Of a stretch of DNA of 64,000 bases, positions 32,304 through 41,523 are shown piece by piece (the stretch's first letter is position 1; each line of letters opens with the position of its first letter). Made by a program: the position numbers and the translations under genes. The stretch comes from Lewinella sp. W8 (GTDB lineage: Bacteria; Bacteroidota; Bacteroidia; Chitinophagales; Saprospiraceae), in contig NZ_SNAQ03000008.1 in the NCBI RefSeq assembly GCF_004375085.3, positions 67,531 through 131,530 of the forward strand. Reading direction: 5' to 3'. The notes beneath the pieces are model-generated. The model did not search any database, was not told where the DNA came from, and saw only the letters and a list, made by a program, of their open reading frames with translations.

Positions 32304-33695
32304 ATGCTCTTTTCCTCCCTGATTTTTCTCTGGCTCGCCCTGCCCCTCATCTGGGGCGGAAGCTGGCTGCTCCCCCGGCGATGGCTGAACGCCTTCCTGC
32401 TGGTGGTAAGCCTACTGGTTTACGCCTGGGGAGGGGTAAGCTACTCTACCCTGCTGCTGGGCAGCATCGGGATGAATTACCTGCTGGGCCGTCAACTGCG
32501 GGGGAGTAAAAAGAAGTTCTGGCTAGCGCTGGGGGTAGTACTCAACCTGCTCTTGCTGGGCATCTTCAAGTACGCCGCCTTTGCGACTACGGAATTCAAC
32601 CGGCTGTGGACCTGGTTCGGAGAGGCACCGCTACCGGTGCCCGACCTGACGCTTCCCCTGGGGATCAGCTTTTACACCTTCCAGGCCATCTCCTATCTGG
32701 TGGATACTTACCGGGGAGTGACGCCTCCCCAGCGCCGGCTAGATCACCTGGGGCTGTACATCGCCTTCTTCCCGCAGCTAATTGCGGGGCCAATCGTGCG
32801 CTACCAGGACATCCGGGAGCAGATTCTGCAACGTGTACGCAGCTGGGAGAAAACCCACGAAGGGATTCGTCGCTTTCTCGTCGGCCTCGCCAAAAAGGTC
32901 CTCATCGCCAATACGCTGGCGGGCATCAACGAGGAGATTTTCGCCCTCGATTTCACCACGATGGATCCCCTGACGGCCTGGGTGGGCATCGTTTCCTACG
33001 CCGGACAGATTTACTACGACTTCAGCGGATACTCGGATATGGCCATTGGCCTCGGGTTGCTGTTCGGGTTTCGCCTGCCGGAGAACTTCAACTTTCCCTA
33101 CGCCAGCCGGAGCATCCGGGAGTTTTGGCGGCGGTGGCACATCACCCTCGGCGCCTGGTTCAGGGACTATCTCTACATTCCCCTCGGCGGCAGCCGGGGC
33201 AGCAACTGGGCCACCAGTCGTAACCTCCTGCTGGTCTTTATGGCCACGGGTATCTGGCACGGTGCCGCGTGGAGTTTTCTGCTCTGGGGGCTCTGGCACG
33301 GCCTGTTCATTGCCCTGGAGCGGCAGCGGTGGTGGCCCCTGCGGGGCGTCTTGTATGCTTTTCTGGTCACTCTTTTCGGCTGGGTACTTTTCCGTACTGA
33401 ATCTTTCACCCTCTCGGTTCAGTATTATGCGGCCATGTTCGGACTTAACGGGGAAACCATTCCTTTTGACTGGTCCTTCTATTGGAACCGGGAGTTATCG
33501 GTGGTAAGCGTGGTGACCCTGCTGGGGTTCTGGCCCTGGTGGCGCCCCATGACCGATCGATGGGGAGAAATCCTGGCCCGGCGGCCGTGGCTTAAGGAGA
33601 GTTTGCTCACCGGTGCACTGTTGGTCCTCTTTCTCCTCTGCACCAACTCCCTGGTCAACAATAACCTCAATCCGTTCATCTATTTCCGTTTCTGA
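32304..33695 (+). CDS. MBOAT family polysaccharide O-acyltransferase (AlgI-like)
   Basis: 463 residues, about 11 membrane helices. Moves acyl groups across the membrane for O-acetylation of an exported glycan. PLGISFYTFQAISYLVD, REFWRRWHITLGAWFRDYLY and GIWHGAAWSFLLWGLWHG carry the conserved MBOAT histidines. A GATATTTG promoter-like element lies about 40 bp upstream of the ATG. TGATG overlap with the next gene indicates an operon. Confidence 0.93.
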   Translation: MLFSSLIFLWLALPLIWGGSWLLPRRWLNAFLLVVSLLVYAWGGVSYSTLLLGSIGMNYLLGRQLRGSKKKFWLALGVVLNLLLLGIFKYAAFATTEFNRLWTWFGEAPLPVPDLTLPLGISFYTFQAISYLVDTYRGVTPPQRRLDHLGLYIAFFPQLIAGPIVRYQDIREQILQRVRSWEKTHEGIRRFLVGLAKKVLIANTLAGINEEIFALDFTTMDPLTAWVGIVSYAGQIYYDFSGYSDMAIGLGLLFGFRLPENFNFPYASRSIREFWRRWHITLGAWFRDYLYIPLGGSRGSNWATSRNLLLVFMATGIWHGAAWSFLLWGLWHGLFIALERQRWWPLRGVLYAFLVTLFGWVLFRTESFTLSVQYYAAMFGLNGETIPFDWSFYWNRELSVVSVVTLLGFWPWWRPMTDRWGEILARRPWLKESLLTGALLVLFLLCTNSLVNNNLNPFIYFRF

Positions 33696-34861
33696 TGAAG
33701 TCGAAATACCGGATATTCCTTCCCGTGGCGCTCGCCCTGCTGTTTGTGGTCTTTTGGCTGGATGCGCTGGTGTTGGGCGTCGGAGCGCAGGTGCCAAGTT
33801 TTGAAAACAAGCGGCCGGCCGATCCTCCGGAGTTTCGCCTTGACTACCTCGATCCCTTCCCCCGGGACGCCGAAGCCTACTTCAACGACCACTTCGCCTG
33901 GCGGGGTGTTTTCCAACGCTTCAACGCCCAGCTACAGCAGGTCACCAACGGACGGTCGCCGCTGCCGGATTACGTCGTGGTGGGCAAGGACGACTGGTTC
34001 TTCAAGGGCGGGTTACAACTGGACATCTACCGCGGCAAGCAGCGGTTCTCTCCCGAGCAGCTTGAGGAAGTCGTGCGTACCCTGCTGACCCGGCGGGACA
34101 GCATCGAGGCCCTGGGTGGGCGATACTATTTCGCCGTGCCGCCCCTCAAGCATCACGTATACGCGCACCATCTGCCGGACTACGTGCGACCGCTGAACAC
34201 CGAGTACGCCACCAAGCAATTATACGCCCGATTACGCTCCACCGACCTCCGGGTGATCGATCTGCACGAGCCGCTGTTGGCCTACGCGGATACGGCCTCG
34301 GTGGAAGAGCTTTATTACCGGACCGACCACCACTGGACCGTCCGGGCCGGGGTGGTGGCCGCCGAAGCCATCGTCGATCAGCTCCGGGAAGACGGTGTCC
34401 CGCTGACGCCCTTTAACCGGGACGCCTACTACTATAAGGTGTTCCCGAATCCCGGTATGACCCTGGCCAAACTGGCCGCCCTCGATCGGGAAGACCAGGA
34501 CGTCCTCTTTACCCTCCACAAGAAAAGTCCCTGGAATACGGAAGTCGTTGACCGGCCGGATCTCCAGCCCCCCGGGGATTTCCCCTACCCGGAGAACTAC
34601 GCCATCCACCGGCAACAAACCGACGCCCAAAAGCGCGCCCAGTACCCCACGCTCTTCGTCAACCGGGAAAGCTTCGGCGAAAACCTGCTGCTCCCCCTCT
34701 CCGACCACTTCGGCAAATCATTTTTCCTCTTCGATGAATGGGAGCACGACCTGAACCTCCCGGAATACAAACGGGAGGGCGGAGACATTTACCTTCAGCT
34801 CGTCTGGGAGGGCTTTCTCTTCAATCTCCTGAATCAGGACGTGGAAGACGGGAGCTGGTAG
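33695..34861 (+). CDS. AlgJ/AlgX-like SGNH acetyltransferase, periplasmic
   Basis: 388 residues, N-terminal membrane anchor (RIFLPVALALLFVVFWLDAL). YYRTDHHWTVRAG contains the DHHW motif that supplies catalytic Asp/His in the AlgX/AlgJ family, and NRESFGENLLLPLSDHF holds the probable nucleophile Ser. It accepts the acetyl group delivered by the upstream MBOAT protein and places it on a polysaccharide. ATG overlaps the MBOAT stop (TGATG). No polymerase or glycosyltransferase gene is adjacent, so the modified glycan is unknown. Confidence 0.88.
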   Translation: MKSKYRIFLPVALALLFVVFWLDALVLGVGAQVPSFENKRPADPPEFRLDYLDPFPRDAEAYFNDHFAWRGVFQRFNAQLQQVTNGRSPLPDYVVVGKDDWFFKGGLQLDIYRGKQRFSPEQLEEVVRTLLTRRDSIEALGGRYYFAVPPLKHHVYAHHLPDYVRPLNTEYATKQLYARLRSTDLRVIDLHEPLLAYADTASVEELYYRTDHHWTVRAGVVAAEAIVDQLREDGVPLTPFNRDAYYYKVFPNPGMTLAKLAALDREDQDVLFTLHKKSPWNTEVVDRPDLQPPGDFPYPENYAIHRQQTDAQKRAQYPTLFVNRESFGENLLLPLSDHFGKSFFLFDEWEHDLNLPEYKREGGDIYLQLVWEGFLFNLLNQDVEDGSW

Positions 34862-34900: not shown

Positions 34901-35190
34901 CCCTTTTGCCGGATAAATCCGGCGCTACTGAAATATTTGGGTTTATCCAATGGGTCTTTTACTCTACCGCTAACTTTAGCTGCCTTTCCGGCAATCGGGA
35001 AGGATTACGAGGTCATCACGCCAAAGTCTCTTCATCAATAATTATGGTTCTTCAGTAGCGACGGCTTTAGCCGTTGGGGTTTACCTTTCGCCGGATAAAT
35101 CCGGCGCTACTGAAAAATTGGGGTTTATCCAATGGGTCTTTAGCCTTTGGCCCCTACCCTTCACCGGGTAAATCCGGCGCTACCGGGATG
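34901..35190. repeat. Direct repeats GGATAAATCCGGCGCTAC, 2.5 copies
   Basis: Copies at 34901-34960 and 35084-35142 share GCCGGATAAATCCGGCGC, TACTGAAA and the GGGTTTATCCAATGGGTCTTT segment; a partial copy lies at 35158-35185. CCGGATAAATCCGG is itself palindromic. Between copies is GACGGCTTTAGCCGTT, a second short palindrome. The stretch 34862-35310 has no gene. Confidence 0.8.
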
Positions 35191-35315: not shown

Positions 35316-35391
35316 TTATTACGACTAAACTCGTAATAAAATTTGCTTTATTACGACCAGGCTCGTACTTTTGCTACGACCACACTCGTAA
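35316..35391 (+). promoter_or_regulatory. Promoter with three BlaI-type operators
   Basis: -33 TTTG at 35342-35345, a 20-nt spacer, and -7 TACTTTTG at 35366-35373: a close match to the Bacteroidota consensus TTTG-N19-21-TAnnTTTG. Three inverted repeats of the form (T)TACGA-N6-TCGTA(A) lie at 35316-35339 (9-bp perfect arms), 35348-35368 (inside the spacer) and 35374-35391 (over the expected transcription start). Centres are 32 and 23 bp apart. This layout predicts repression by the BlaI protein encoded immediately downstream. Confidence 0.88.
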
Positions 35392-35397
35392 TAAACC

Positions 35398-35787
35398 ATG
35401 CCCAAGCAACAACCTACCCAGCCCACGGCCTCCGAACTCGACGTACTCCAGTTACTCTGGGATCGGGGTCCACTGCCCGTTAAGGAGGTGCACGCGGCGC
35501 TTTCCCAGGAACGCGACATCGTGTACACCACCGTCCTCAAGACCATGCAAGTCATGTTTGAGCGCGGCTTTCTGACCCGTGAAAGTGCGGGACGGAAGCA
35601 TATTTACGCCGCCGCGATCGCCAAGGAGGACACCCAAAACAGCCTACTGGACACCTTCCTCAACAAGACCTTCGGTGGTTCCGCCAAGGCGCTGGCCATG
35701 CGGGCGCTCGGCAACTACCAGACGTCCCAACAGGACATTGATGAGCTCAAGGCCCTGATCGAGAAACTGGAAAACAAGGACCAATGA
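35398..35787 (+). CDS. BlaI/MecI family transcriptional repressor
   Basis: 129 residues with a winged helix (SELDVLQLLWDRGPLPVKEV, TTVLKTMQVMFERGFLTRE) and a C-terminal dimerisation part. BlaI-type repressors are cut or released when the partner M56 membrane protease senses a signal. The start ATG is 7 bp after the third operator. The stop overlaps the next start (ATGA), so repressor and protease are one operon and autoregulated. Confidence 0.95.
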   Translation: MPKQQPTQPTASELDVLQLLWDRGPLPVKEVHAALSQERDIVYTTVLKTMQVMFERGFLTRESAGRKHIYAAAIAKEDTQNSLLDTFLNKTFGGSAKALAMRALGNYQTSQQDIDELKALIEKLENKDQ

Positions 35788-38700
35788 TTGAGCAACTCCT
35801 CTCCCCCGATCTGGTCCACGCCCTGGGCTGGACCCTCGTGCATACCCTCTGGCAGGCCGCCGTATACGCCCTGCTGCTCGGCCTCCTGTTGATCCTGCTG
35901 CGGAAGTACTCCGCCCAGGCCCGCTACGTGGTGGCCATCGGCCTCCTGGTGGCCTTTTTCGTAACCGTCGGCGTTACCTTTTATGGGTTACTTCCCGAGG
36001 AAACCGCTCCAATATCTTCCAACCTGACGACGGTGGAAATGATGAGCGATGGCCCGCGGGCCATACCGGAGGTCTCTCCGGCATCCACTACGGTCACTCC
36101 GGAAATCAGCACGCCCGGTTTTCGGGAAAGGGTCATTCGTTACTACAACGACCATCTGCCCCTGATCGTAACCCTCTGGTTGATGGGTGTATTGGTCCTG
36201 CAGTTGCGGCTGCTTGGCCAACTGGCCTTCGTGCAACGCCTGAAGAACTACGGAACCAACCGTTTTCCCACCGAATGGGCAACCAAAATTCAGGAACTTG
36301 AGGGAGCCCTCAAGCTGAGTAAGCCCGTGCGCTACCTGACGACGCACCGAATTTCCTCTCCCATGGTCATCGGGTGGCTCCGTCCGGCGGTGCTCTTCCC
36401 CGCGCCCATGCTGGAGAAACTACAAGAAAATCAGGTGGTAGCCATCCTGGCGCACGAATTGGCCCACGTCAAGCGTCATGATTTCGCCGTCAATTTGCTC
36501 CAGAGTCTGTTCTGTACCGTTTTCTTTTATCATCCGGCGGTATGGTGGATGTCGGCCCGGGTAGAGGAAGAGCGGGAACACTGCTGCGACGATATCGCCA
36601 TCCGGGCCACGGGGCAGCCAGTTGGCTACGCCAGAACCTTACTGGAGCTAAAGGAATCCGAACTGGCCAATCCCCGGATGGCCATGGCCTTCACCGGCAG
36701 CGGCAAAGGGTTCAAGGTGAGGATATCCCGCTTACTGTCCGGATATTTGGGCACGAGCACCTACGGCGAAGGATTCACCACCGCCGTCATCATTGCGGGT
36801 TGTATTGCGCTGGCCGTCAATCTGTCCGGTCAGCGGGAAGCTTCTCCGTTAACGTCCGACCTGAACGGTGAGTCTACCATCCTGCAGCAGCCGGAGGGGC
36901 CACCGGCACCTCCTCCCCCACCACCACCGCCCGCTCAACCCTCCGGCACCGAAGGCTTTATCCGCCCTACGCCCGAGTTAAGTCCGGAACAATCCCTCAA
37001 AGTCAACGACATGATGGAGGACCTGCTGGCGGGGCAATTACGGCTGGACCCCAACGATCCTCAGGGCACCTTCGAGCTCTTCATGCACGCCATTTACGAG
37101 GGCGAATTGGAGCTGGTCCAGTACTTTCTCGATAAAGGAGAGATCACCGACCTAAACCAGGCCGACCAGTTTGGCTACACGCCGCTGATGGCGGCGGCCA
37201 GTGAGCACCATACGGAGGTCACGCGCCTGCTACTCAAGCGCGGTGCGCAGGTCAATCACGTTTCCCCCAACGGCTGGACGGCCCTGATGGCCGCCGCCGA
37301 AGAAGGCGCCGTGGATGCCGTGAAACTGCTGCTGGAATCGGGGGCCGACGTCAACCTCAAGGGTAAGAATACACCCCATACGCCCCTGACCGTGGCGGCG
37401 GAAAATGGCCACACGGACATCTTCACCCTGCTGGTCACCCGCGGAGCGGACATCTTTAGCCTGGGCGACGACATTCACCCGCTGCTCGCCGCCGCTAAGG
37501 AGGGCGAACTCGGTACGGTGCGGCAGTTGATCGACCTGAAAACCGACCTGAACGTCACCGATCACGAGGGACGAACCGCCATCATGTACGCCACCGAAGA
37601 TGGGTTTGCGGAAGTTGTGGAAGAGTTGATTCGCCGGGGCGCGGACGCAGGTGCCACGGACTCCCGGGGGCGCACTGCCCTGCACTACGCAGCCGGCGAG
37701 GGCCACTTTGAGGTGGCCAAAGTATTGCTGAAGGCGGGACTCGACCCCAACCAACTGGACCACGAGGGTCACGCTCCGGTGGTGTACGCCGTGGATGACG
37801 GCCACGTGGACGTGATCCGGCTTTTCGTGGAGGTTGGTAAAGTAGACCTTGAGGCCCTGCGGGCCGGCGGACACGACCTGATGGAGATTGCCGCCAAGGA
37901 GGGGCACGAGCACGTGCTCGAGTATCTCCTCGATGGCAAGGCCATTGCAGTAGATGATGAAGAGGCCGTGGCCTCCTTCCTGGCCGCCGCCCGGGAAGGT
38001 AAGCTGAACATCGTCCGGCGGTTCGTTGCCGATGGCATGTCGGTTGACGTCCGCGACGAAGACGGATACCGGGCCCTGGATCTGGCTGCCCGCGAAGGCA
38101 AACTTACCACGGTGGAGTACCTGCTGGATCAGATGTCTTCCGACACCAAGCTGGAGCCGGCCTTTCTGCTCGCCGCCCGCGAGGGGAAATATTCGGTAGT
38201 CAAGTTGTTTTTAGAGCAACAAATTGATCCCCAGGCCACCGATCGCGACGGCTATACCGCCCTGGCACTGGCCGCCCGCGAAGGCAAACAGGAAGTGGTG
38301 GAGTTGTTGCGCCCCGCCGCATGGTCAAAGGAAGATCTCAACCTCCCCCTCCAGTTGGCGGCCCGCGAAGGAAAGCTGGCCACGGTCACCTACCTCCACC
38401 GGGAAGGCGCCGACCTCAACGCCGCCGATGAGGACGGCAATACCCCGCTCAGCCTGGCGGTACGGGAAGGTAAATACGCCGTAGCGCAGTACCTGATCGA
38501 GCAAGGCGCCGACGTAGCGGGTTCTTCCCGCGGGTGCAGTCCGGTATTCCTGGCCGCCCGCGAGCGGCAGGCGAGCCTGATCACCCTGCTGGCCAGCAAC
38601 AAGGCCGATCTGGAGAGTACCTGTTCCTACCGGGACATCGACTACTTTGACAACGGACGCGCCAACCGCAACACGATTGCGCAATACGAAAACGCGACCC

Positions 38701-39053
38701 CACTGGTGGTGGCCCTCACCGAAACCGACATGGCCAGCGTGAATGCCCTGATCCGGGCGGGAGCTAACGTGAACGCCCGCAGCCGAAAGCTGCGGTTTCT
38801 GGCCAACCGCAAACTGGACTACCGCGACAGCTTCAACCTGACCGAAGCCTCCATGCGCCAGCAATTCGACCTCGATTACGAAGCCGACGGCTGGACCCCA
38901 CTGATGGAAGCGGTGGAAACCGGCAACGCTGACTTCGTGATCCTCCTCCTGAAAAACGGCGCGGACCGCAGCCTGGCTACCGACCAGGGATTAACGGCCC
39001 TGCAACTGGCCAAAAACCTAAAACTAGACACCATCGTTCGCGCCCTACAGTAA
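35784..39053 (+). CDS. M56 (BlaR1-like) membrane metalloprotease fused to about 19 ankyrin repeats
   Basis: 1089 residues. N-terminal half: membrane helices, cytoplasmic zinc protease with HELAH at 224-228 and EREHCCDD at about 263-270, a further membrane helix at about 333-349. After a proline tract (about 370-384) the whole C-terminal 690 residues are ankyrin repeats, for example FGYTPLMAAASEHHTEVTRLL, RGRTALHYAAGEGHFEVAKVL, many with an AAREGK turn. In BlaR1 this position holds the extracytoplasmic penicillin sensor; here ankyrin repeats probably sense a protein or peptide ligand in the periplasm (inference from BlaR1 topology). Start overlaps blaI stop. Confidence 0.92.
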   Translation: MIEQLLSPDLVHALGWTLVHTLWQAAVYALLLGLLLILLRKYSAQARYVVAIGLLVAFFVTVGVTFYGLLPEETAPISSNLTTVEMMSDGPRAIPEVSPASTTVTPEISTPGFRERVIRYYNDHLPLIVTLWLMGVLVLQLRLLGQLAFVQRLKNYGTNRFPTEWATKIQELEGALKLSKPVRYLTTHRISSPMVIGWLRPAVLFPAPMLEKLQENQVVAILAHELAHVKRHDFAVNLLQSLFCTVFFYHPAVWWMSARVEEEREHCCDDIAIRATGQPVGYARTLLELKESELANPRMAMAFTGSGKGFKVRISRLLSGYLGTSTYGEGFTTAVIIAGCIALAVNLSGQREASPLTSDLNGESTILQQPEGPPAPPPPPPPPAQPSGTEGFIRPTPELSPEQSLKVNDMMEDLLAGQLRLDPNDPQGTFELFMHAIYEGELELVQYFLDKGEITDLNQADQFGYTPLMAAASEHHTEVTRLLLKRGAQVNHVSPNGWTALMAAAEEGAVDAVKLLLESGADVNLKGKNTPHTPLTVAAENGHTDIFTLLVTRGADIFSLGDDIHPLLAAAKEGELGTVRQLIDLKTDLNVTDHEGRTAIMYATEDGFAEVVEELIRRGADAGATDSRGRTALHYAAGEGHFEVAKVLLKAGLDPNQLDHEGHAPVVYAVDDGHVDVIRLFVEVGKVDLEALRAGGHDLMEIAAKEGHEHVLEYLLDGKAIAVDDEEAVASFLAAAREGKLNIVRRFVADGMSVDVRDEDGYRALDLAAREGKLTTVEYLLDQMSSDTKLEPAFLLAAREGKYSVVKLFLEQQIDPQATDRDGYTALALAAREGKQEVVELLRPAAWSKEDLNLPLQLAAREGKLATVTYLHREGADLNAADEDGNTPLSLAVREGKYAVAQYLIEQGADVAGSSRGCSPVFLAARERQASLITLLASNKADLESTCSYRDIDYFDNGRANRNTIAQYENATPLVVALTETDMASVNALIRAGANVNARSRKLRFLANRKLDYRDSFNLTEASMRQQFDLDYEADGWTPLMEAVETGNADFVILLLKNGADRSLATDQGLTALQLAKNLKLDTIVRALQ

Positions 39054-39097
39054 ACCCAGACTTATCCCATAACCCCACCTTCTAAAGTACCCCCGAC

Positions 39098-39114
39098 GAG
39101 CGCCCCGGGCGCTC
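39098..39114. repeat. 17-nt GC-rich palindrome between M56-ankyrin and TonB-receptor genes
   Basis: GAGCGCCC-C-GGGCGCTC in the 76-bp gap before the receptor start. It might attenuate or separate expression of the receptor from the upstream pair; there is no T-tract, so it is not a standard terminator. Confidence 0.5.
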
Positions 39115-39129
39115 CCTAAAAACCAAACC

Positions 39130-41523
39130 ATGCGTTTAATTACCCTACTTGGGTTACTGGCCCTGGCCAGCAACCTCTTAGCTACTGCTTTACCTAATTC
39201 CCCCATTAAAGCCGCCCTTTCGGGCACCGTGGTGACCGAAGACGGACAGCCCCTCGAATATGCTACCGTCTCCGCCTACACCAGTGAAAACACCCTGGCC
39301 AACGGTACGGTCACCGACGAAAAAGGCCAGTTTACCTTACAGCTTCCCCACGGTGACTACCAACTGAAGATCGAATTTATCGGTTTTGCTACCCGGGACA
39401 TTCCCGTTGAGCTTAGCGGCAAGACCGACCTGGGCAACATCACCATCGGCCAGGATGCCCTCACCCTCGAAGCCGTTGAAGTGCGGGCCGACAAAAGTCA
39501 GATGGAACTCAAGTTGGACAAGAAGGTCTTCAACGTGGGTAAAGACGCCCTCGCCCAGGGCGGAGACGCCACGGATGTTCTGGCTCAGGTGCCTTCGGTT
39601 ACCGTCTCGGCGGAAGGCTCCGTGAGTCTTCGGGGCAACGGCAGCGTGCGGATTCTCGTCAATGGCCGTCCATCCGCCCTGGCCGACAACGGTTCTTTGG
39701 AGGGCATCCCCGCCAACAGCATCGAACGGGTGGAGATCATCACCAATCCCTCGGCTAAGTACGAAGCGGAAGGTTCGGCGGGTATCATCAACATCGTCCT
39801 CAAGAAAAACCAGCAGCGTGGCTACGGCGGTACCATCAGCCTGGGAACGGGCTTCCCGGCCGACCACCGGGCCAACGTCAACCTGAACCTGCGCCACGAG
39901 AAGTTTAACGCCTTCGCCAACGTGGGGGGGCGCTACGCCAACTTCCGGGGAGACGGTGAATTGAGCCGGACGTCCACCATCGAGGGAGAAATCACCAACC
40001 TGGTGCGCGTCCCGGACATGGACCGCAACGACCGCGCCTATTCCGTCTACACCGGTTTTGACTACAACCTCAGTGAACGGGGGACCCTTACGGCCTCCTA
40101 TTCCAGATATGACGTCATCAACGACGACATCAGTGTCAATACCTACGACTACAGCGACGGGGAATTCGTTCCGTTTCGTTCGCTCCGCCAGGTGGAGGAC
40201 TACCTGGAACCCGGCCTGTATCAGCAAATCGACGTGCTGTACAATCACAATTTCTCGGATGAGCGAAAGCTATCGCTGCAATTCAGCCACGATCGCTGGG
40301 CCGAAACCGAAAGCCAGGGCGTCATGATTGAAGAGACCTTTCCGGCTCTGGCGTCCGTGGTGGATTACCAGACGGAAAGCATTGAGAGCAGCGAAGACTA
40401 CCTCGCGCAGGCCGATTACGAAGCTCCGCTGGGAGAATACGGAAAACTTGAACTGGGGTTACGGGCCGAAAGCCGGGTGATCAGCTCCGATTACTTCGCC
40501 GAGCGGGCCACCGAAAATGGCTATGCGCCCATCCCGGGTTTTGCGGCCAACAAGTTTGACTACTTCGAGCAAATCGGAGCGGCCTATTTCCAGTACGGAT
40601 ACGAAAAGGAGGCCATCGGTTTCCAACTTGGTCTGCGCGCAGAGACCATCGGTATTGAAACCGAAAACAGCGAGGAGGCCGCCAACAACATCAATAAGAA
40701 TTTTCTGCAGCTCTTTCCTTCCGCCAGTATTCAGTACAAACTGACCGACGGCATCAGTAGTCAGGTAAGTTACTCCCGGCGAATCCGTCGTCCGGCCTTC
40801 TGGCAGTTGAGTCCCTTTGCGGGCATCCGCCTGCCCTCCAGTTTGTTTTTTGGCAACCCCGACCTTAATCCCTCCTTCACCAATCGGGTGGAATGGAACC
40901 TTCTGATGCGCGGGGAAAAACTCACCTTCAACCCGGCGATATACTATTCCTTCATTACCGACTACTTCCAAAACGTACTCTCTCAGGAGCCCGGCAACCT
41001 TTTCGGCCTCAACGACGGCACCATCATTTCGCGCCCCACAAACCTGCAGCGGGAGGGAGCCTACGGCGTCGAAGCAGACCTGGGCTACCGGCCTACCGAA
41101 ACCCTTAACTTCAACCTCTACGGCCGCTACTACGGTTACAGCCAAAGGGGCAACGTGGAGGGGAGAAGCTTCGATTTCGATTTTGCCACCTGGACGGCCA
41201 GCATCCGGGCCCAGATTAGACTCCCCAAAGAGCTGAGTTTCCAGACCCGCATTGGCTACAACGCCTACCGGGAAGACGCCCAGTCCGAAAACCCCGGCGT
41301 ATTCAACGGCAGTGCGGCCATCAGTAAGGAATGGGACAATAAATACACCGTTACGGTCAACGTGTACGCTCCGCGTTACTTTCGCGAAAACACCTTTCTA
41401 CCCACCTTCCGGCAGGAGGATTTCTTCCAGTGGACCGGCTGGCGTTTCGGGTTGAACCTGCAATACCGATTTGAGAAGGGTGCTCGTGCCGAGGGACGTC
41501 GGCAGCGGGGAAGCATCCGCTAG
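39130..41523 (+). CDS. TonB-dependent outer-membrane receptor
   Basis: 797 residues: signal peptide (RLITLLGLLALASNLLATA), carboxypeptidase-regulatory domain (LSGTVVTEDGQPLEYATV), plug (VLAQVPSVTVSAEGSVSLRG, VLVNGRPS-like ILVNGRPSALAD, SIERVEIITNPSAKYEAEG), then a large beta-barrel of the outer-membrane-protein family 3 type. Imports a ligand or acts as signal receptor; no SusD partner. It starts 76 bp after the ankyrin protease on the same strand and may belong to the same regulatory circuit. Confidence 0.93.
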   Translation: MRLITLLGLLALASNLLATALPNSPIKAALSGTVVTEDGQPLEYATVSAYTSENTLANGTVTDEKGQFTLQLPHGDYQLKIEFIGFATRDIPVELSGKTDLGNITIGQDALTLEAVEVRADKSQMELKLDKKVFNVGKDALAQGGDATDVLAQVPSVTVSAEGSVSLRGNGSVRILVNGRPSALADNGSLEGIPANSIERVEIITNPSAKYEAEGSAGIINIVLKKNQQRGYGGTISLGTGFPADHRANVNLNLRHEKFNAFANVGGRYANFRGDGELSRTSTIEGEITNLVRVPDMDRNDRAYSVYTGFDYNLSERGTLTASYSRYDVINDDISVNTYDYSDGEFVPFRSLRQVEDYLEPGLYQQIDVLYNHNFSDERKLSLQFSHDRWAETESQGVMIEETFPALASVVDYQTESIESSEDYLAQADYEAPLGEYGKLELGLRAESRVISSDYFAERATENGYAPIPGFAANKFDYFEQIGAAYFQYGYEKEAIGFQLGLRAETIGIETENSEEAANNINKNFLQLFPSASIQYKLTDGISSQVSYSRRIRRPAFWQLSPFAGIRLPSSLFFGNPDLNPSFTNRVEWNLLMRGEKLTFNPAIYYSFITDYFQNVLSQEPGNLFGLNDGTIISRPTNLQREGAYGVEADLGYRPTETLNFNLYGRYYGYSQRGNVEGRSFDFDFATWTASIRAQIRLPKELSFQTRIGYNAYREDAQSENPGVFNGSAAISKEWDNKYTVTVNVYAPRYFRENTFLPTFRQEDFFQWTGWRFGLNLQYRFEKGARAEGRRQRGSIR

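Follow-up and report, generated by a model that had tools for sequence, protein, structure and literature searches.

The locus and its three genes

A 64,000-nt stretch of the genome of Lewinella sp. W8 (contig NZ_SNAQ03000008.1, positions 67,531 to 131,530, forward strand), here called the window and numbered from its first letter, carries three plus-strand genes in series: a blaI-type repressor (35398..35787, 129 aa), an M56 metalloprotease fused to ankyrin repeats (35784..39053, 1089 aa) and a TonB-dependent receptor (39130..41523, 797 aa). The blaI stop and the protease start share ATGA, and a 76-bp gap separates the M56-ankyrin gene from the receptor gene. A preliminary description of this DNA had given the same coordinates, strands, overlap and gap, and all were correct on re-reading.

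The first gene product belongs to the Penicillinase_R winged-helix family, as confirmed by its match to PF03965 (4.2e-27, above the curated cut-off) and by the alignment of residues 9-125 with Staphylococcus aureus BlaI (1sd4, 2e-11). The CxC metal motif of CopY is absent from its 129 residues, which include no cysteine at all. BlaR1 cuts S. aureus BlaI between N101 and F102, and the Phe at P1' is described as almost invariant in the relevant part of PMC9834060. This bond aligns with R102-A103 of the window repressor. Over 115 BlaI sequences (the sampled loci described below and seven genes from the window's own genome, without L030 and L031), P1' is occupied by Ala in 101, Thr in 4, Val in 4, Leu in 3 and Phe in 3, the last being the own-genome paralogues L028, L029 and L032. 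With Ala at this position, a cut at the canonical bond is not a given for the window protein; the conserved M-R/K-A/T-L-G block is a candidate place to seek a cut.

The second protein combines an M56 protease domain (Peptidase_M56, residues 22-315, 1e-32), four transmembrane segments, a proline-rich linker and an ankyrin array (Ank_2, 5e-102), an architecture drawn from Pfam, hydrophobicity and AlphaFold2. The zinc motif HELAH (residues 224-228, 36453..36467, plus strand) and the gluzincin motif EREHCCDD (residues 263-270, 36570..36593, plus strand) are both retained, as had been noted beforehand, and their key letters (H224, E225 and H228; E263, E265, D269 and D270) are invariant in 31 of 31 aligned proteins. 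HMMER aligns E265 and D269 with the two defining residues of the BlaR1 ExxxD motif (8exs), given as E242XXXD in PMC9834060. The HExxH and ExxxD elements of the M56/BlaR1 family gluzincin site are thus present as H224ELAH and E265xxxD269.

The ankyrin array, predicted to be periplasmic, occupies residues 426-1088 (37059..39047, plus strand) and is defined by Pfam, topology, AlphaFold2 and Foldseek. AlphaFold2, run on an alignment of 22 sequences, models it as 19 ankyrin-type helix pairs (whole model: mean predicted local distance difference test (pLDDT) score 77.8, predicted template modelling score 0.49), a count that omits a lone helix at 689-694 and a short pair within an insertion; most 10-residue blocks from residue 431 onward exceed a pLDDT of 85. 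The earlier figure of about 19 repeats is therefore right by structure. A purpose-built sequence repeat model recovers only 13 of these, and the repeat numbers that it gives for relatives are accordingly lower bounds. Near the end of the array lie two insertions with beta-hairpins (947-971 and 1000-1037). Foldseek ranks ankyrin-1 and ankyrin-B top for the model, and its best 50 matches are all ankyrin proteins, BlaR1 not being among them. The C-terminal part matches solely ankyrin-type models in Pfam and ankyrin-bearing proteins in NCBIfam, and no penicillin-binding sensor domain was found there in either database, in agreement with the proposal that ankyrins stand in place of such a sensor. 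A disulfide between cysteines 918 and 947 was considered and set aside; the same spacing occurs among the aligned proteins only in L123 and L125.

Four hydrophobic segments lie at matching places in all 22 aligned M56-ankyrin proteins, one of which (L123) has a fifth. The stretch following the first segment holds 1-4 K/R and no D/E in 22/22, and K/R are more numerous before than after the fourth segment in 19/22, the exceptions being L123, L134 and L138. BlaR1 has its sensor protruding outside the membrane and its protease on the cytosolic side, according to the pertinent section of PMC9834060. From charge pattern and homology, the protease is predicted to lie on the cytoplasmic side and the ankyrins, since they follow the fourth segment, on the periplasmic side, matching the M56/BlaR1 family plan of four transmembrane segments, a cytoplasmic protease and a C-terminal domain outside. 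Topology had been singled out in advance as a test of the periplasmic scaffold, and the array falls in the periplasm rather than the cytoplasm by this prediction.

The third protein has the plug and the outer-membrane beta-barrel of a TonB-dependent receptor, with Pfam matches to CarboxypepD_reg, Plug and OMP_b-brl_3 (7e-75); no STN signalling domain was found by Pfam, CarboxypepD_reg being present instead. Its AlphaFold2 model (pLDDT 79.2, poor in the plug region) finds TonB-dependent transporters as best folds, for example PhuR at 5e-23. Neither sequence nor fold narrows the cargo, both returning general TonB-transporter matches alone.

Conservation of the three-gene order

Neighbouring genes were tabulated for 60 fetched regions, picked by score or open reading frame (ORF) length, together with the window, the own-genome paralogue L026 and L144. 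The named loci are the best 80 of a longer match list and comprise 23 M56-ankyrin loci (L123-L145) and 57 M56 loci without ankyrins; the fusions were sought within one score range only. The nearest named relatives come from Neolewinella agarilytica (L123), N. persica (L125), N. xylanilytica (L128) and Lewinellaceae SD302 (L127), and further near relatives from metagenome bins labelled Lewinella, Saprospiraceae, Chitinophagales (L144) and Bacteroidia (L143). A sample of 395 genomes of the phylum yielded, apart from the window's own genome, no hit that scores as high as members of the M56-ankyrin clade: the top score was 240 bits, and the lowest clade member in the family search has 278 bits. 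The three longer hits of that sample (L103-L105) have no ankyrins.

Among 35 sampled M56-ankyrin genes, a same-strand receptor of this family comes next in 22, including L073, L095 and L102 where a contig end cuts it, and none in 11. Two are undecided, the sequence of L096 stopping within the protease and that of L083 continuing for 433 bp after it with no receptor start. By comparison, a receptor of this family lies beside none of the 78 decidable M56 genes without ankyrins, drawn from 29 in the fetched regions and 57 named ones among the matches listed. In a protease-domain tree of 84 rows (35 with ankyrins, 29 without from the fetched regions and own genome, and 20 random named ones without), 34 of the 35 M56-ankyrin rows form one clade with a support of 96 in the Shimodaira-Hasegawa-like approximate likelihood ratio test (SH-aLRT). 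Within it, a sub-clade of 26 with an SH-aLRT of 100 holds the window protein and 22 members with a receptor, two without (L026 and L091) and two undecided. The three-gene order proposed for the window is thus conserved in relatives, with the receptor next in 22 of the 24 decidable members of the sub-clade. As the receptor-bearing genes fall in this one sub-clade, the receptor was most simply gained once, and a Fisher value computed for these loci does not reflect independent events. The operon receptors likewise form one clade of 20 rows against 17 paralogues (SH-aLRT 100).

A stronger argument for linkage than these counts is the retention of the trio amid diverged sequences and flanks. The three genes stay together though protease domains fall to 43% identity and receptors to 39%, and the flanks of 19 loci (96 genes) yield only 7 homologous pairs at an E-value of 1e-8; since the flanks are mostly unrelated, the order is not leftover synteny. 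Within the genus (21 genomes), each of the 10 receptor orthologues of at least 42% identity directly follows an M56-ankyrin gene, although the contig of one (G381) includes no more than the ankyrin tail of that gene. Receptor orthologues of at least 42% identity are absent from G383 (L091) and from G385 (L083), a half-complete genome, both of which have the protease; G375 has two whole operons (L085 and L092). The three-gene neighbourhood is not due to chance.

One M56-ankyrin protein, L077 of G055 (L077:7213-10074), falls outside the main clade on a long branch and is perhaps a separate fusion of M56 and ankyrin parts.

Predicted operators and promoter

Directly 5' of blaI lie three exact palindromes of the form TACGA-N6-TCGTA, at 35320..35335 (TACGACTAAACTCGTA), 35352..35367 (TACGACCAGGCTCGTA) and 35375..35390 (TACGACCACACTCGTA), none assigned to a strand. 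A predicted promoter on the plus strand, TTG-N20-TACTTTTG (-33/-7, 35343..35373), matches TTG-N18..24-TAnnTTTG, which we take to be the Bacteroidota-type promoter consensus. It spans the second palindrome, which lies within the -33/-7 spacer and overlaps the -7 box by 2 bp, and the third palindrome follows immediately 3' of that box. Of 34 M56-ankyrin loci, 16 have the same promoter-like pattern ahead of blaI, a count taken with no shuffle control. In place of the operator type given for BlaI/MecI in the relevant part of PMC7253601, TACANNTGTA, the window blaI has the three TACGA-N6-TCGTA palindromes as candidate operators.

The distribution of the palindrome points to BlaI as its ligand. Every one of the seven exact copies in the 6.18-Mb genome lies a short way 5' of a blaI gene (three at the window blaI, the others at L026, with an M56-ankyrin gene, and L025, with an M56 gene without ankyrins); a reversed control pattern occurs four times. 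Among the sites listed for 13 of 20 other genomes of the genus and part of G000, all 18 groups of at least two close sites in the 13 other genomes adjoin a BlaI gene, judged by eye. Isolated palindromes are found in places without a BlaI gene too, and the reversed pattern turns up 0-6 times per genome. Of the 109 loci with a called BlaI, 101 carry at least one exact site near the start (three sites in 53, two in 41, one in 5 and five in 2), and at least two of the eight others (L066 and L096) are start miscalls. These palindromes are accordingly regarded as probable operators of BlaI. A wide BlaI regulon is unsupported, as all seven exact sites of the genome are at blaI genes.

No exact palindrome was found in the gap between protease and receptor in any of 22 loci (in L094 an early start left a gap of zero), and a separate operator for the receptor was rejected on this basis. 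The gap is as short as 6-24 bp in six loci and reaches 529 bp in others; with ORF starts assigned automatically, these lengths may err where a start was placed early (L089, L094 and L095). A full promoter-like match occurs in one of the 22 gaps (L097), several being too short to hold one, and L063 and L066 have a -7 box alone. In the window the gap contains a 7-bp hairpin (39098..39114, plus strand) with no T-run after it; its region has a folding z of -1.74, 10 of 200 shuffles fold equally well, and it was not among the results of the terminator scan. The hairpin may modulate readthrough into the receptor gene.

A probable autorepressed circuit and its alternatives

The reading that we favour, and consider reasonably probable, is a three-gene operon that represses itself: an ankyrin sensor in the periplasm would act through the protease to remove BlaI and so raise receptor levels. 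BlaI dimers would bind the two or three operators covering the promoter and hold all three genes low. The M56 protein would span the inner membrane, its zinc protease facing the cytoplasm and its array the periplasm; there the array would read some event: a bound protein or peptide, cargo imported by the receptor, or the receptor itself. The activated protease would then remove BlaI, derepressing the operon so that the receptor is made in larger amount. Co-transcription of the three genes, proteolysis of BlaI by the M56 protein and sensing by the array are all predictions, and a single BlaI-repressed unit read through into the receptor gene is the simplest model of control. The preliminary description had joined the three genes in one circuit; what emerges is a conserved operon, probably under BlaI, whose sensor is probably periplasmic and whose exact candidate operators lie only upstream of blaI.

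Several observations weigh against this picture. Two members of the same protease type, own-genome L026 and L091 of G383, have no receptor, and L083 shows no trace of one in the 433 bp before its contig ends. The canonical P1' Phe of the BlaI cut site is Ala103, the charge bias at the fourth transmembrane segment is reversed in three of the 22 proteins (L123, L134 and L138), and a scan for E. coli-type promoters gave none, compared with 2.9 in shuffles. The 7-bp hairpin in the gap, even with no T-run, might lower readthrough. The array itself ranges from 7 to 16 repeats among operon members by the sequence repeat model, and L084 and L085 retain the receptor with about 8 repeats and no C-terminal half. 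A long arm is thus dispensable for receptor linkage; a periplasm-spanning ruler as a general rule is ruled out by these two loci, and a fixed role of this kind for the ankyrin arm is unlikely. The first repeats are conserved in operon members, the middle and C-terminal half varying in occupancy, and the membrane-near repeats are likely the functional surface of the array.

The array might instead read receptor occupancy rather than free ligand: a loaded TonB receptor would touch the ankyrins, much as receptors of the FecA type signal to an anti-sigma protein in the membrane, and the protease would then destroy BlaI and so act as an antirepressor in the role of an anti-sigma factor. Ankyrin arrays often bind proteins, a general habit with which such a contact would fit, and the operon receptor is a single clade tied to the M56-ankyrin type, with none beside the 78 decidable M56 genes without ankyrins. 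There is also a precedent in cell-surface signalling, where a TonB-dependent transporter serves as sensor and the signal passes through regulated proteolysis, as outlined in part of PMC7593790. Members with about 8 repeats keep the receptor, however, so reach is not the point. The usual signalling module of transducing TonB receptors is STN, and the operon receptor has CarboxypepD_reg in its place. We regard this version as a tentative one, with the odds somewhat against it. Rather less likely is that the receptor is linked yet separately expressed, with BlaI controlling blaI and the protease alone. The 76-bp gap with its hairpin, the gaps of up to 529 bp elsewhere, the promoter-like match of L097 and the -7 boxes of L063 and L066 would suit such an arrangement; the gaps of 6-24 bp in six loci, the 21 of 22 gaps without a full promoter-like match (several too short for one) and the persistence of linkage among mostly unrelated flanks argue against it.

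An ordinary beta-lactam response with a diverged sensor is the least credible explanation and appears very improbable. The BlaI and M56 families are those of such systems, and in the own-genome locus L026 a beta-lactamase-family hydrolase (P0003, PF00144, 8e-64) follows 220 bp on. The window protease nonetheless has no penicillin-binding or transpeptidase domain and its operon no beta-lactamase gene, and PF00144 takes in many hydrolases that are not lactamases.

The BlaI-BlaR1 pair is taught as an antibiotic-resistance switch. The conserved trio in Neolewinella and its relatives suggests an antibiotic alarm rewired toward the control of uptake, for which a sensor, likely operators, a likely promoter and one likely target can be named from sequence. 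No description of M56 proteins with ankyrin repeats, or of a BlaI-M56-TonB receptor operon, was found among the open-access papers that the searches listed; the ankyrin-receptor operon is new as a variant of a BlaI-M56 kind that is already known. Relatives of the operon occur in named isolates (N. agarilytica DSM 24740, N. persica DSM 23188 and N. xylanilytica DSM 29526), which makes control of an outer-membrane receptor by an M56 antirepressor, as well as periplasmic sensing by ankyrins, directly testable.

Other M56-BlaI loci and neighbouring features

Nine BlaI-M56 pairs are encoded in the window's own genome. Upstream of five of the paralogous blaI genes (L027, L028, L029, L030 and L032) stand other palindromes (TACTACGGTTGTAGTA, TACTAATCAATTAGTA, AACTAATCAATTAGTT, TAACGTATTTTTACGTTA and CAACTATAAAAATAGTTG), and among the three with Phe at P1' (L028, L029 and L032) two have ACTAAT/ATTAGT-type palindromes and one AACTAT/ATAGTT. 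There are thus at least two BlaI classes in this genome, differing in palindrome and in cut-site residue (Phe or Ala), and these differences may insulate the circuits from one another. The paralogous operon L026 (L026:5310-10019) consists of blaI, an M56-ankyrin gene (867 aa) and, after 220 bp, the PF00144 hydrolase P0003 with TPR.

The same chassis seems to be widely used in Bacteroidota with other sensors and other partners. In 12 M56-BlaI loci, a relative of DUF5916/CBM9 proteins (about 860 aa, Pfam-checked in four) comes next on the same strand: the Hymenobacter loci L176, L185, L190, L192, L193, L195, L200 and L201, together with L103, L104, L105 and L081. The M56 proteins of these loci have a long non-ankyrin C-terminal part, making a second conserved pairing of sensor and partner. 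Relatives of PDZ proteins with type IX secretion system (T9SS) tails come next in 8 loci (L111, L112 and L121 among them; Pfam-checked in two), some of which may match through the tail alone, and at 11 loci, of which Pontibacter supplies ten, the next gene encodes a relative of a matrixin protein with a T9SS tail (Pfam-checked in one); loci of this type include L148 and L171 (Adhaeribacter). The variety of envelope and secreted partners suggests a chassis whose sensor and partner can be exchanged, the ankyrin-receptor form being one version. More tentatively, M56-BlaI pairs would serve throughout Bacteroidota as a common chassis, with the extracytoplasmic domain and the gene for the envelope partner replaced as a set.

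Upstream of the blaI locus, two neighbouring genes with one base in common (32304-34861) encode a polytopic membrane protein that resembles an MBOAT acyltransferase, judged by eye, and an AlgX-type SGNH protein (PF16822). Between the AlgX-like gene and the blaI palindromes (34902-35185), an intergenic repeat, GCCGGATAAATCCGGCGCTACTG, occurs as two 58-bp copies that are almost the same and as one further core copy of lower similarity.

Comparison with known systems

The operon shares much with BlaR1-BlaI and MecR1-MecI of Staphylococcus and Bacillus: adjacent genes for a repressor and a membrane-bound M56 zinc protease with HExxH and ExxxD, four transmembrane segments, a C-terminal sensor that is extracytoplasmic (by prediction here) and palindromic operators over the promoter (again predicted here). 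It differs in having an ankyrin array where BlaR1 and MecR1 have a class-D-beta-lactamase-like sensor, in a palindrome of TACGA-N6-TCGTA rather than TACA-NN-TGTA, in an Ala at the cut site where S. aureus BlaI has Phe, and in the linked outer-membrane receptor. The CopY/CopR copper repressors belong to the same PF03965 winged-helix family and also use paired palindromic operators, but they carry a CxC metal motif, whereas the window BlaI has no cysteine and a different palindrome. Closer at hand, other M56-BlaI operons of Bacteroidota have the same repressor class and palindrome, a C-terminal extension on the M56 protein and an envelope or secreted protein next; they lack ankyrins and have different partners (DUF5916/CBM9 in Hymenobacter, PDZ or matrixin proteins with T9SS tails). 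Signalling of the FecA/FpvA type similarly ties an outer-membrane receptor genetically to an inner-membrane regulator based on proteolysis. Those systems rely on a sigma/anti-sigma pair and STN, neither of which is present in the window operon, and here the regulator is itself a protease that would act on a repressor. Should the array read the loaded receptor, an antirepressor of the BlaR1 type would take the place that FecA-type signalling across the envelope gives to an anti-sigma factor.

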